Part shown: positions 23,921 through 30,728 of the stretch, one piece after another
How positions within the stretch are numbered: position 1 is the stretch's first letter
How the letters are laid out: every line of letters starts with the position of its first letter
Assembly: GCF_001425785.1 (NCBI RefSeq)
Contig: NZ_LMDI01000042.1
Span: 1-33,600 of the forward strand
DNA length: 33,600 bases
Reading direction: 5' to 3'
Origin: Rhizobacter sp. Root1221
Lineage (GTDB): Bacteria; Pseudomonadota; Gammaproteobacteria; Burkholderiales; Burkholderiaceae_C
Notes under the pieces: model-generated
Databases searched by the model: none
The model's input: only the letters and a program-made list of their open reading frames with translations
Told to the model about the DNA's origin: nothing
Program-made: the position numbers and the translations under genes

Positions 23921-24817
23921 ATGAAACAATACTTGAAATTTGCGTCGTTGGTCATCTTCTGTTTTGCGGCCTGCCCCTCTTCGTTACCCGTTTTGGCGGC
24001 TGAGCCAGAGCCGCTGGTGGTTAGGGTCCGTGCCTTCAGGGGAACCGCATCGAACTATGACGATACCAAGGAATATAAATACCAAGTATTGCAGTTGATC
24101 CTGGAAAAGACTGCAAAGACCGATGGCCCCTTCAAGATTCAAGCGCCGCAACAAGAGCTTCCACAGGCCAGGGATTTCGAGATGGTAAAGCAAGGCTATG
24201 TGGATGTGATCTTGACATCGACATCACCAGAGCGCGAGCAGGAACTTCATCCCATCCGGATCCCGTTTGACAAAGGGCTGTACGGCTATCACATCGCGAT
24301 CATCAATGAAAGCGATCAGCCGAAGTTTTCGGCAGTCCGCACGCTGGCGGATTTGCAGAAGTTGTGGGCCGGTTTGAACGAGGTATGGCCGGAGACGAAG
24401 GTCTTTCGCGACAACGGGCTCAACGTGGTGGCAACTTCAGGGTATAGGGAACTCTTCGCCATGTTGAAAGAACGGCGTTTTGATTATTTTCCCAGAGTCG
24501 CCCACGAACCATGGCGAGAGTTGCGGGACATGAACATTCCCGGCTTGTCTGTGGAAACCGACCTGCTGATCTACTATCCAACGCCCGGATATATCTTTAC
24601 CAACAAGAACAACAAAAAACTGGCCGACAGACTCGAGCGCGGGTTCCGAATGGCTCTTAAAGACGGCTCATTCGACAGGCTTTTTTATAATCATCCCGAC
24701 ATGAAAGAGGCTTTGGAACGAGCCAATCTCAAGAGCAGGAGGATTTTTGAACTGAAAAATCCGTTGTTGTCGAAGGAAACGCCGTTGAACGATAAAAGTT
24801 TGTGGCACACGCCGTAA
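23921..24817 (+). CDS. Periplasmic solute-binding protein (PBPb type) of a sensory module
   Basis: A 298-residue secreted protein: signal peptide MKQYLKFASLVIFCFAACPS...LAA, then a family-3-like binding fold. Blocks such as VDVILTSTSPEREQELHPIRIPFDKGLYGY and KVFRDNGLNVVATSGYRELF, with ERRFDYFPRVAHEPW, match a group of binding proteins found beside histidine kinases and diguanylate cyclases rather than with ABC permeases. No permease or ATPase gene is adjacent. I infer that it presents a ligand to the sensor kinase encoded 26 bp downstream. The start follows GAGGA. Composition is unlike the surroundings (one 60-nt line counted at 45% GC). Ligand unknown. Confidence 0.82.
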   Translation: MKQYLKFASLVIFCFAACPSSLPVLAAEPEPLVVRVRAFRGTASNYDDTKEYKYQVLQLILEKTAKTDGPFKIQAPQQELPQARDFEMVKQGYVDVILTSTSPEREQELHPIRIPFDKGLYGYHIAIINESDQPKFSAVRTLADLQKLWAGLNEVWPETKVFRDNGLNVVATSGYRELFAMLKERRFDYFPRVAHEPWRELRDMNIPGLSVETDLLIYYPTPGYIFTNKNNKKLADRLERGFRMALKDGSFDRLFYNHPDMKEALERANLKSRRIFELKNPLLSKETPLNDKSLWHTP

Positions 24818-24843
24818 TTGCCGAAGCATTGGCGTAGGCAATC

Positions 24844-27081: not shown

Positions 27082-30000
27082 GCGATGTTGATACCTATCC
27101 GGACGACATCCTTGTAGTTGACGACACACCGGCCAGTCTCAAGCTGCTGGAAGGCGTGCTGAGCAGCGCGGGCTACCGCGTGCGATTGGCTACCGACGGC
27201 GAGGTGGCTCTTTTCAGCGCGAAGATGCACCCGCCTGCGATGATCCTGCTGGATATCAAGATGCCCGGCATGGATGGTTTCGAGGTATGCCAGCGCCTCA
27301 AGCAGGAGGAACGAACCCGTTCCATCCCCGTCATCTTTCTCAGCGGCCTCCAGGATGAACGTGAGAAGGTCAAGGCTTTTGAGGTCGGCGGCGTTGACTA
27401 CATCAACAAGCCGATTCGTGCCGAGGAGGTGCTCGCGCGGGTTAGTACTCACCTTGCGTTGCGGCATGCGCTGTCGGATCTGGAGGCGCGCAATGCCGAG
27501 CTGGAGGCGGCGCGCCATACGCTGGAGGAAAGGGTCAGGGAGCGTTCAGCGGAACTGGAGATGGCAAACTGGCGGCTTCGTCAGCAGGTCGAAGAACATC
27601 TTCGCACCGTTAAGGCGCTGCAGGAAAGCGAAGCCCGGTTGAATATCTCCCAGCGACTCAGCAAGGTTGGCGGTTGGGAATACGATATTTCGTCGGGCAA
27701 GTCATTCTGGACGGAGGAGCTCTACAGAATCCATGAGCTGTCCGCCACTCCCGGTCTGGACCACATTCAGGAAAGCCTGAAGTGCTACAGGCCCGAAGAC
27801 AGGCCAACCATACTCGCCGCGTTTCGCGGAGCCGGTGAGCGCGCTGAACCCTACGACCTCGAGTTCCCGTTCACGACATTCGGAGGGAAGCCTCTGTGGG
27901 TCCGCCTGACCGCCGAACCCGTTTATGCGGAAGGCAAGGTTGTGCGCGTAGCAGGAAACCTCATCGACGTCACCGAGCGCAAACGGGTGGACGATGCGTT
28001 GCGCGCGAGCGAGGAGAAATACAGATCCCTGATCCAGAAGCTTCAGGCGGCCGTGGTGGTTCATGCAGCAGATACCCGCATCGTCACTTGCAATGCCGTT
28101 GCGCAGCGGTTGCTGGGGCTCACGGAAGATCAGTTGCTGGGGAAGACCTCCATCGATTCGGATTGGCACTTCTTCCGTGAAGACAGAACCGTGATGCCGT
28201 TGGAGGAGTACCCGGTCAATCAAGTGCTGGCCACACGGCAACCGCTCAAGAACCTCATGGTCGGTGTGCATCGCCCGGGCAACGCGGAAGACGTCTGGCT
28301 CATGGCCAGTGCCAATCCGGTATTCGGTACGGGAAACGCAATCGAGGAAATCGTCGTGACCTTCATCGACGTGACCGAGCGCTTGCGGGATCAGGAGAAG
28401 ATCACCCATCTTGCGTCCATCGTGGAATCGTCAGATGACGCGATCATCGGCAAGCTGCTGGACCAAACCATCGTCAGTTGGAATCGTGGCGCCGAGCGCA
28501 TCTATGGCTATACCTCTGCCGAGATGGTGGGCCGCTCCGTCTCGATTCTGGTTCCTCCCGAGTTGCAGGATGAGTCGGCCACCATCATGGAGCGGCTGAA
28601 ACAGGGCGAAGGGGTGGAGCACCTCGAAACGACCCGCCTGCGCAAGGACGGGCAGGCGATCAATGTGGCCCTCACGATTTCCCCGATGAAGGACGCCAGC
28701 GGGCGAGTTTTCGGCGCGTCCACCATCGCCCGCGACATCACCGAGCGCAGGCAGAGTGAAGCCGAACGGGACGCGCGGCGAGTCGCCGAAGCGTCGAACC
28801 AGGCCAAGAGCGAGTTCCTGGCCAACATGAGCCACGAGATCCGCACGCCGATGAACGCCATTCTCGGCATGTCGTACCTGGCGCTGCAAAGCCACCTGAG
28901 TCCGCAACAGTACAACTACGTGGAGAAGGTGCACCGGTCGGCCGAGTCGCTGCTGGGCATCATCAACGACATCCTCGATTTCTCGAAGATCGAGGCGGGT
29001 CACCTGGACATCGAACACATCCCGTTCGACCTCGGCGATGTCATGGACAGCCTGGCCAACCTGCTGGGCATGAAGGCCGAAGAGAAGGGCCTGGAGCTGG
29101 TGTTCGCCTTGCCGCCGGACCTGCCCAACGCGCTGGTAGGCGATCCCTCGCGGCTGGGGCAGGTGCTGATCAACATGGGCAACAACGCGGTCAAGTTCAC
29201 CGAGCGGGGGGAGGTCGTCGTCGGCGTCGAGGTGCTCGCGCGCGACACTACCTCGGTGCGCCTGCGCTTCGAGGTGCGCGACACCGGCATCGGCATCACA
29301 CCCGAAGAGCAACAGCGGCTTTTCAAGCCGTTCTCGCAGGCCGACGCGTCGACGAGCCGCCGGTTCGGCGGCTCCGGACTGGGCCTGGCCATCAGTCACC
29401 ACCTGGTGCGCATGATGGACGGAGAACTCGGCGTCGACAGCACACCGGGGCGCGGAAGCCGGTTTTACTTCAGCGCGAACTTCGGCATCGGGCTCGAACG
29501 CGCCGCCAACGATGCGGCCTTGTCCGATGACGGCCTGCACGGCGCCCGTGTGCTCGTCGTTGACGACAACGACGCCGCGCGCGAGGTGCTGGTGCACATG
29601 GCTGGTTCACTCGGGCTGCGCGCCTCGGCGGCCAACGGTGGCCACGAAGCCATCCAGGCGATCGTGGCGGCGGATGCGCGTGGCGAGCCCTTCGACCTGC
29701 TCTTGCTCGACTGGAGGATGCCGGGCATGAACGGTGTCGACTGTGCGAAGCAGCTGGCCCGCATGCCTCTGGCGCACCCGCCGCCCACCGTGTTGATGCT
29801 CACGGCCTTCTCCAGCGATGAAATGGCGCGCGCGCTGGCGGCCGAACGGCTCACCGTGGCGGCGACGCTGACCAAGCCGGTCACGCCTTCGACGCTGCTG
29901 GACGCCAGCCTGCAAGCGATCGGCCAGCCGCGCCAGCATGCCCTGCGAGGCGAGTTGCGTGAAGAAGCGCTGCAGAGCAACCGTGCGGTCCTGGCCGGTG

Positions 30001-30728
30001 CCCATGTGCTGCTGGTTGAGGACAACTCGTTCAACCAGGAGCTGGCCCGTGACCTCCTGGGCCGCGCGCAGATCGTGGTTCGGGTCGCCAACAACGGCCG
30101 CGAAGCCATCGACATGCTGGCGCGCGAACGCTTCGACGCGGTGCTGATGGATTGCCAGATGCCGGTCATGGACGGCTATGAGGCCACGCGCGAGTTGCGT
30201 GGCCACCCGGAGTGGCGCGATCTGCCGGTCATTGCGATGACAGCCAACGCGATGGTCGGCGATCGCGAGAAGGTGCTGGCGGCCGGCATGAACGACCACA
30301 TTGCCAAGCCGATCAACGTGGCCGAAATGTTCGCCACGCTGGCGCGCTGGGTTCGACCGGAGGTTGCTGCGGCGAGCGGTGGTTTCCCGAGCATCGAGAG
30401 CGCGGCTGCGCTGGCCGGGGTGATGGGCGACGAGCAGCTCTATCGGCGCTTGTTGGGCATGTTCCGTGATCGGGAAGCCGGCTTTGCGGCCCGTTTTGGC
30501 GCCGCCTGTGCAGCGCGCGACATCTTCACGGCCACGCGGTTGGCGCACGACCTGAAGAGCGAGTCCGGCACCCTGGGGGCGACGGCCGTCCGCGAGGCCG
30601 CTGAAGCGTTGGAACAAGCCTGCGCCAACGGCGCCGGCCCGGCCGTCATCGACGCGCTGCTCGCGGCCGTGATCGAGCGCCTGGACCCCGTGATCGCCGG
30701 CTTGCGCTCGCTCGAGGGCTCGCGGTAG
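27078..30728 (+). CDS. Soluble REC-PAS3-histidine kinase-REC-REC-HPt hybrid protein
   Basis: A 1216-residue cytoplasmic protein with no membrane segment. Order: receiver 1 with D59 ([14 protein letters not shown]), coiled coil (about 130-185), three PAS domains (about 195-305, 315-430, 440-560; each closing with a DVTER/DITER linker), HisKA with H586 ([10 protein letters not shown]), HATPase ([24 protein letters not shown]), receiver 2 with D878 ([10 protein letters not shown]), receiver 3 with D1025 ([16 protein letters not shown]), and an HPt domain with H1157 ([15 protein letters not shown]). All phosphorelay residues are present. GGGGAGG precedes the ATG, which overlaps the upstream kinase stop (ATGA). 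No DNA-binding, GGDEF or other output domain exists. GC rises along the gene (57% and 62%, later 63% and 70% in lines counted). The ultimate response regulator is unknown. Confidence 0.93.

Follow-up and report, generated by a model that had tools for sequence, protein, structure and literature searches.

The window analysed here is the whole of contig NZ_LMDI01000042.1 (G000:C42; 33,600 nucleotides) of the 6.87-Mb genome of Rhizobacter sp. Root1221. It contains three codirectional genes encoding a periplasmic solute-binding protein (SBP), a membrane hybrid histidine kinase with a CHASE5-like sensor, and a large soluble hybrid kinase. We propose, at about even confidence, that the locus is an acquired three-step signalling cascade in which the membrane kinase has the soluble protein for its response regulator. 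Comparative analyses of gene context supported a functional link between the binding protein and the membrane kinase. The best reading of the soluble protein makes it the response regulator for a hybrid-kinase type that is here joined to a CHASE5-like sensor, because its first receiver, with the phospho-acceptor D59, is conserved and relatives of that receiver are mostly located directly downstream of kinase genes.

An original prediction, made from the letters of the window alone, had described the genes, their coordinates, a 4-bp overlap and the phospho-residues, all of which were confirmed from the sequence and with Pfam. The binding-protein gene (23921-24817) is followed after a gap of 26 bp by the membrane-kinase gene (24844-27081), which overlaps the soluble-kinase gene (27078-30728) by 4 bp. 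Pfam matched HisKA, HATPase_c and one receiver in the membrane kinase, and three receivers, PAS hits, HisKA, HATPase_c and Hpt in the soluble protein. The positions of H292 and D586 in the former and of D59, H586, D878, D1025 and H1157 in the latter were all verified, and the receiver and kinase motifs around the phospho-residues are complete in both kinases; the histidine phosphotransfer (HPt) assignment rests on Pfam, our own HPt motif pattern being too strict and matching nothing. The features of the cluster are as follows (REC, receiver).

23921..24817, + strand: putative orphan periplasmic solute-binding protein, distantly SBP_bac_3-like, 298 aa (Pfam, family profile, signal sequence)
24844..27081, + strand: membrane hybrid histidine kinase, 745 aa, with CHASE5-like sensor, HAMP (weak), HisKA (H292), HATPase, REC (D586) and tail
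24955..25347, + strand: periplasmic CHASE5-like sensor, residues ~38-168, between two transmembrane helices (limits set by eye)
26455..26790, + strand: membrane-kinase receiver, D586
26833..27078, + strand: membrane-kinase C-terminal tail, without conserved histidine (profile from 4 orthologues)
27078..30728, + strand: soluble protein, 1216 aa, REC-PAS-PAS-PAS-HisKA(H586)-HATPase-REC(D878)-REC(D1025)-HPt(H1157)
27108..27443, + strand: soluble-protein N-terminal receiver, D59 (conservation in all 4 third-gene products)
28803..29474, + strand: soluble-protein kinase core, H586 (Pfam; orthologue identity)
29550..29897, + strand: soluble-protein second receiver, D878 (motif check)
30006..30341, + strand: soluble-protein third receiver, D1025 (Pfam, motif check)
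30450..30659, + strand: soluble-protein HPt, H1157 (Pfam Hpt E 4.5e-8)

The soluble protein and its N-terminal receiver

Orthologous clusters were found by a search that reaches close relatives only. They lie in a Comamonadaceae metagenome-assembled genome (MAG; locus L003), in 'Bacterium UASB270' (L004) and in a Rhizobacter MAG (L005). UASB270 is given in the available part of PMC4312070 as Candidatus Vecturithrix granuli (spelt Vecturathrix there) of the KSB3 candidate phylum. The original prediction had made its link between the three genes depend on their co-occurrence elsewhere, and the same order is kept in 3/3 of these loci, a recurrence that is more than chance. Identities of the window to L003, L004 and L005, respectively, are 80, 75 and 80% for the binding protein, 68, 66 and 66% for the transmembrane and sensor part of the membrane kinase, 81, 74 and 83% for its D586 receiver, and 67, 58 and 82% for the first receiver (D59) of the third gene. 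Beyond that receiver and its linker, L003 and L004 carry a different kinase (27 and 29% identity to the window core), and their third genes have no second receiver, third receiver or HPt, whereas the third gene of L005 is window-like throughout (kinase 91%, HPt 82% identity). D59, which lies in a complete phosphorylation motif (acidic pair, D59, lysine), is thus the one phospho-acceptor site, receiver or HPt, that all four third-gene products share; in L004 the residues following the equivalent aspartate deviate slightly from the motif pattern. The kinase core and last two receivers (window:28803-30341) are 90-93% identical to L005, compared with 66% for the sensor, a pattern that may reflect either recent module exchange or strong constraint.

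These comparisons bear on the phosphate route that had originally been put forward, H292 to D586 to H1157, in which the soluble protein would be mainly a shared HPt and kinase hub. The membrane kinase does have a receiver without an HPt, as had been claimed: it ends in a tail of ~80 residues that recurs in L184 and L185, two further hybrid kinases from this genus, and the candidate of a hidden HPt in this tail was rejected, 0 histidines being conserved in the tail alignment (by eye). Its partner has an HPt, the two genes overlap, and L005 has retained that HPt. Some related CHASE5-like hybrid kinases contain an HPt within the same chain (L064, L112, L113, L116, L143), which counts in favour of the D586-to-H1157 route. 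Nevertheless, the HPt is missing in 2/3 orthologous third genes even though the D586 receiver is 74 and 81% identical there, for which reason the HPt was rejected as a fixed partner of D586, and the route leaves the conserved D59 receiver without an obvious partner. We consider transfer from D586 to H1157 unlikely.

Relatives of the D59 receiver point to a different role for the soluble protein. A search with the receiver and its linker matched 31/200 genomes of the host family, the window's genome included. In 24/29 loci, counted by eye and excluding that of the window, the gene with the D59-type receiver is located directly downstream of a same-strand kinase gene, and 22 of these 24 kinases are hybrid; L286 shows only a REC-REC-HPt end upstream. 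In L260, L261, L264 and L266, the upstream kinases resemble the window's membrane kinase (kinase core 50-55% and receiver 50-62% identical) more than its soluble kinase. Among the proteins scanned, the outputs behind the receiver were GGDEF-EAL (6), HD-GYP (2), LuxR-type (6), sigma-54 activator (2) and kinase (5); Pfam scans covered 10/29 receiver-relative proteins. L263 (REC-HK-REC-HPt) ends in REC-HPt, as does the window's soluble protein. The original prediction had treated D59 as a cytoplasmic input; from these alignments and gene orders, it is more likely the receiving end of the membrane kinase than a separate cytoplasmic input.

The description of the phosphorelay as one 'without an output' holds in part. 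To judge by its architecture, the product of the third gene resembles a response regulator with a kinase output; the last effector is indeed missing from the locus. A conserved local output gene was considered and rejected, as none is common to the orthologous loci: the downstream genes are porin-like in L005 and esterase-like in L004 (by eye), and L003 alone continues with a stand-alone receiver, a receiver-GGDEF frame and an EAL frame (split into two open reading frames). These frames end a dense kinase cluster (L003:1-17059), in which the kinase cores are alike by eye and SBP-like genes are interspersed.

The binding protein and CHASE5-like sensors

The binding protein has an N-terminal signal sequence (by eye) and scores below the cut-off for SBP_bac_3 (PF00497; E 0.006, 16.7 bits, cut-off 26.4), and is taken here to be a distant relative of SBP_bac_3, not a member by cut-off. 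SBPs adjoining CHASE5-like genes in L126 and L128 reach 52.4 and 46.7 bits for this model. The family profile matches solved amino-acid-binding proteins, the best being AncQR (E 2e-6), on which ground our first guess is that the ligand is probably amino-acid-like. The claim that the binding protein lacks transporter genes was borne out: no transporter gene adjoins the cluster, and the closest permease matches are ~16 kb upstream (6173-7716), with an SBP_bac_1 gene of their own. Nor did we observe a constant ABC-permease partner, which the original prediction had regarded as incompatible with its proposed link. A permease model derived from 30 loci in the genome to which the window belongs had a match within 2.5 kb of 1/47 copies of the family (L070), the copies being those of the window, the three orthologous loci and 40 family regions. 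A role as an ABC-system component was rejected on this count, and the family, judged by gene context alone, does not appear to be tied to ABC permeases.

We call the sensor of the membrane kinase CHASE5-like, as it scores just below the cut-off for CHASE5 (PF17149; 24.6 bits, cut-off 27) and aligns lengthwise with five membrane proteins that score 75.5-79.6 bits. These five were met because each adjoins a relative of the window's binding protein (5/40 family regions), and their outputs are PAS-kinase-REC, PAS-kinase-REC-REC with or without HPt, and PAS-GGDEF-EAL. The SBP and CHASE5-like pair is attached to GGDEF-EAL in L057 and L067 (Pfam) and in L109.

Three models were used to compare neighbourhoods: a sensor model (A1) derived from 9 proteins adjacent to SBPs; a strict SBP model, whose training set consisted of relatives of the window's SBP and included a few of the counted proteins (e.g. 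L078, L102); and a wider SBP model (S3), iterated on CHASE5 neighbourhoods. The search with A1 matched 60/200 family genomes, with 91 places among the matches listed. From these, 40 were taken with flanks (ranks 7-44, 47, 52); six that the analysis already included and most low-scoring places were left out, and some low-scoring matches span little beyond the HAMP end. Where a genome had no annotation, its genes were predicted with a simple script for open frames, and some of their starts are too long. An SBP of the window's family was located within 400 bp of 13/38 (strict) or 21/38 (wider) CHASE5-like genes, on the same strand in 21/21; L136 and L144, whose sensor genes were not re-recognised by the model, stand outside the count of 38. 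Other kinase or cyclic dimeric GMP (c-di-GMP) genes in the same regions had an SBP neighbour in 6/35 (wider model). As controls we further took 30 CHASE3 loci, found by searching 100 genomes of the host family. An SBP lay within 1.5 kb in 12/30 CHASE5-like loci with the strict model and 19/30 with the wider model, in contrast to 0/30 control loci with either, and when the four loci used to build the sensor model were dropped, the proportions were 11/26 and 18/26. These results support the coupling of the binding protein to the membrane kinase that had originally been suggested.

The association was also seen outside the host family. A phylum-wide draw of 398 genomes, certain of which are also present in the family draw, gave 29 new loci, all outside that family, with an SBP neighbour in 12/29 (wider) or 5/29 (strict) and no permease match within 1.5 kb in any of the 29. 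The trees of 31 sensor/SBP pairs were correlated (r 0.58), a value that 0/5000 permutations reached, and the correlation persisted without the three orthologues (28 pairs, 0.579, 0/5000 permutations). The window genome itself has two further pairs of an SBP and a CHASE5-like hybrid kinase, on C76 (L055) and on C25 (L143), the second being recognised solely by the wider SBP model; the genes converge on C76, and on C25 the SBP gene is downstream of the kinase. The fourth sensor match of this genome, on C8 (L144), has no such neighbour, and the nearest SBP gene there adjoins a permease match.

Pfam scans of 20 neighbours of sensor genes without a first-model hit identified three SBP_bac_3 (one weak), two Peripla_BP_4 and one YfiR/HmsC-like protein. 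CHASE5-like GGDEF or GGDEF-EAL genes adjoin Peripla_BP_4 in L131 and L139, and one adjoins the YfiR/HmsC-like protein in L141. Three tandem SBP genes precede a single kinase-REC gene with an A1-matching sensor in L136 (4127-7362). Plasmid relatives of the sensor were found in 2 records: that of Alteromonas has a phosphate binding-protein gene farther off and non-adjacent, and that of Methylobacterium had 0 matches by either SBP model.

An alternative is that the binding protein is a bystander serving a distant transporter, a chemoreceptor or another function, and that the kinase senses its ligand directly. A sensor of this kind was found beside the SBP in just 5/40 family regions, and adjacency by itself can mislead: the available part of PMC11113362 reports neighbouring SBP and kinase genes for AgtS and AruS, the two tested cases in which no interaction was seen. 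The same part of that source describes SBPs as well-established co-sensors, with neighbouring or very close genes in 10/11 characterised couples. A bystander would also have to be reconciled with the excess of SBP genes beside CHASE5-like over CHASE3 genes, their same-strand order and the retention of the SBP-kinase pair in 3/3 orthologous loci, and we assign this explanation a low probability.

A proposed cascade and its precedents

Under the proposed cascade, the binding protein would load a small, probably amino-acid-like ligand. As the gene association suggests, it would dock on the membrane kinase at the CHASE5-like domain, similarly to LuxP with LuxQ or NspS with MbaA. The membrane kinase would autophosphorylate on H292 and, directly or via D586, control the phosphorylation of D59, a step proposed because D59 belongs to a conserved receiver and because of the gene order of its relatives. 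The large soluble protein would be the cognate response regulator. Its output would be another hybrid kinase, similar to BarA (relay H586 to D878/D1025 to H1157), that D59 and the PAS domains may gate jointly. H1157 would then feed a response regulator encoded elsewhere. The final effect may well be c-di-GMP turnover or transcription, since relatives mostly carry c-di-GMP enzymes or DNA-binding domains in place of the second kinase.

More tentatively, and at slightly less than even confidence, we suggest that an orphan SBP together with a CHASE5-like membrane domain forms a general, portable input cassette of Pseudomonadota, in which CHASE5 docks ligand-loaded SBPs and which became linked to histidine kinases in some cases and to diguanylate cyclases or GGDEF-EAL proteins in others. 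Here the cassette would drive a response regulator with a complete second phosphorelay as its output, combining periplasmic and several cytoplasmic signals. If CHASE5 is an SBP docking domain, the signals of many kinases and c-di-GMP enzymes could be found by screening the neighbouring SBP and not the receptor. The receiver evidence further suggests a reading rule, by which a large PAS hybrid kinase that starts with a D59-type receiver and follows a hybrid kinase is probably its response regulator and not an independent sensor. A narrow literature search found nothing on what CHASE5 senses; the available part of PMC8846402 names CHASE1, CHASE3, CHASE4, CHASE6_C and CHASE8, and CHASE5 is not among them.

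Several observations count against the cascade, in addition to the same-chain HPt domains and the unlinked AgtS and AruS gene pairs described above. The main one concerns the five relatives of the D59 receiver with a kinase output (L263, L267, L268, L270, L271), among which only L263 was seen with an upstream kinase gene within 1.5 kb. No upstream kinase gene was present within that distance in L267, L268, L270, L271 and L275, and the open frames of L267 and L268 continue beyond the receiver in the upstream direction. Ten wider regions around D59-type receivers yielded no CHASE5-like sensor, and the only one with an SBP of the window's family was L289, where it is ~1.4 kb away and non-adjacent. 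As for the sensor, its own score falls short of the CHASE5 cut-off, and the Pfam CHASE5 model, which is independent of our alignment, found 8 loci in 100 genomes, with an SBP within 1.5 kb in 2 (strict) or 3 (wider). The wider model still left 17/38 CHASE5-like genes without an SBP of the window's family in the 400 bp around them, and 35/40 SBP regions were without a CHASE5-like gene. Shared inheritance can account for part of the correlation between the SBP and sensor trees. A mutual action of the two kinases in a multikinase network like that of RetS, LadS and GacS, through mixed dimers or dephosphorylation and without ordered transfer, would suit overlapping genes that favour equal production and has parallels in the networks known for GacS-type hybrid kinases (PMC8175716, available part), yet it is improbable, as the receiver of the soluble protein is of the type found in ordinary downstream response regulators and would be superfluous in such a network.

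The locus is similar to LuxP-LuxQ and TorT-TorS in that a periplasmic SBP adjoins a membrane hybrid kinase. The models for TorS, BarA and LuxQ rank within the top four NCBIfam scores of the membrane kinase, with values far short of their cut-offs (TorS, TIGR02956: 369.1 bits, cut-off 676.5). In place of a separate HPt (LuxU) or TorR, the window locus has a second hybrid kinase next. Its binding protein differs from those of both systems in being SBP_bac_3-like, and its sensor is CHASE5-like, unlike the tandem PDC of LuxQ and the all-helical sensor of TorS (PMC8534201, available part). NspS-MbaA, an SBP with a membrane GGDEF-EAL protein, is similar in using an SBP as co-sensor, relatives of the window locus likewise pairing an SBP and a CHASE5-like domain with GGDEF-EAL, and it shows that a c-di-GMP output has a precedent. 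NspS, however, senses polyamines and is PotD-like (both points on NspS-MbaA from the available part of PMC9993111), and the output in the window is a kinase.

Counterparts were found within the host family, where the pairs of a hybrid kinase and a REC-output protein in L260, L261, L264 and L266 have the same receiver type directly downstream, with kinase core and receivers 50-62% identical. They differ from the window, with its second hybrid kinase, in having HD-GYP or GGDEF-EAL as output and in that no CHASE5-like sensor was found in them; one pair, L263, was seen with a kinase-REC-HPt output behind the kinase gene. The soluble protein also resembles unorthodox kinases of the BarA/GacS type, matching the BarA model over its kinase-REC-HPt part (521.1 bits), but it is far below the cut-off (NF008318, 890), is soluble, and has an N-terminal receiver, three PAS domains and one extra receiver.

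Insertion, origin and the rest of the window

The segment containing the three genes reads as a horizontally acquired insertion between amiC and dedA, both of them core genes. Its limits and an adjacent remnant are listed here.

23419..30766, strand not assigned: inserted segment between amiC and dedA with three genes (congener comparison, G+C)
23646..23831, + strand: IS1595-family transposase remnant, 61 aa (tblastn against plasmids)

The genes queG, amiC, dedA and mutL are in the same order in 5/5 congeners examined (of 10), in which the amiC and dedA matches are separated by 13-148 bp, an interval without any SBP or kinase match. The G+C content of the insertion is 0.595, versus 0.693 for the rest of the window, and that of the binding-protein gene (0.505) is lower than in all 451 overlapping 897-bp stretches left of the insertion (minimum 0.641). 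In 10/10 congeners the best match to the membrane kinase begins at residue 222 or later, leaving the sensor unmatched, and no binding-protein match at E 1e-55 or better was obtained in other genomes among 398 from the order. The remnant just upstream of the three genes is up to 56% identical to a plasmid-encoded IS1595 family transposase (tblastn) and has no Pfam match; no repeats were found near either edge of the insertion.

Scans of the window gave 0 Rfam matches and no excess of promoter-like or terminator-like sites (2 promoter-like sites versus 1.9 expected; 6 terminator-like sites versus 7.6 expected). An ordinary sugar-uptake cluster occupies 3228-8828, in which a glycosyl hydrolase family 1 gene is followed by SBP_bac_1, permeases and a MalK-like ATPase. 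Within the SBP_bac_1 gene, ARAGORN called a tRNA with a four-base anticodon (4857-4953), which is probably a false positive. A long minus-strand frame at 18454-20853, whose start was probably set too far upstream, matches the tricarboxylate-binding protein TctC over residues 522-786.

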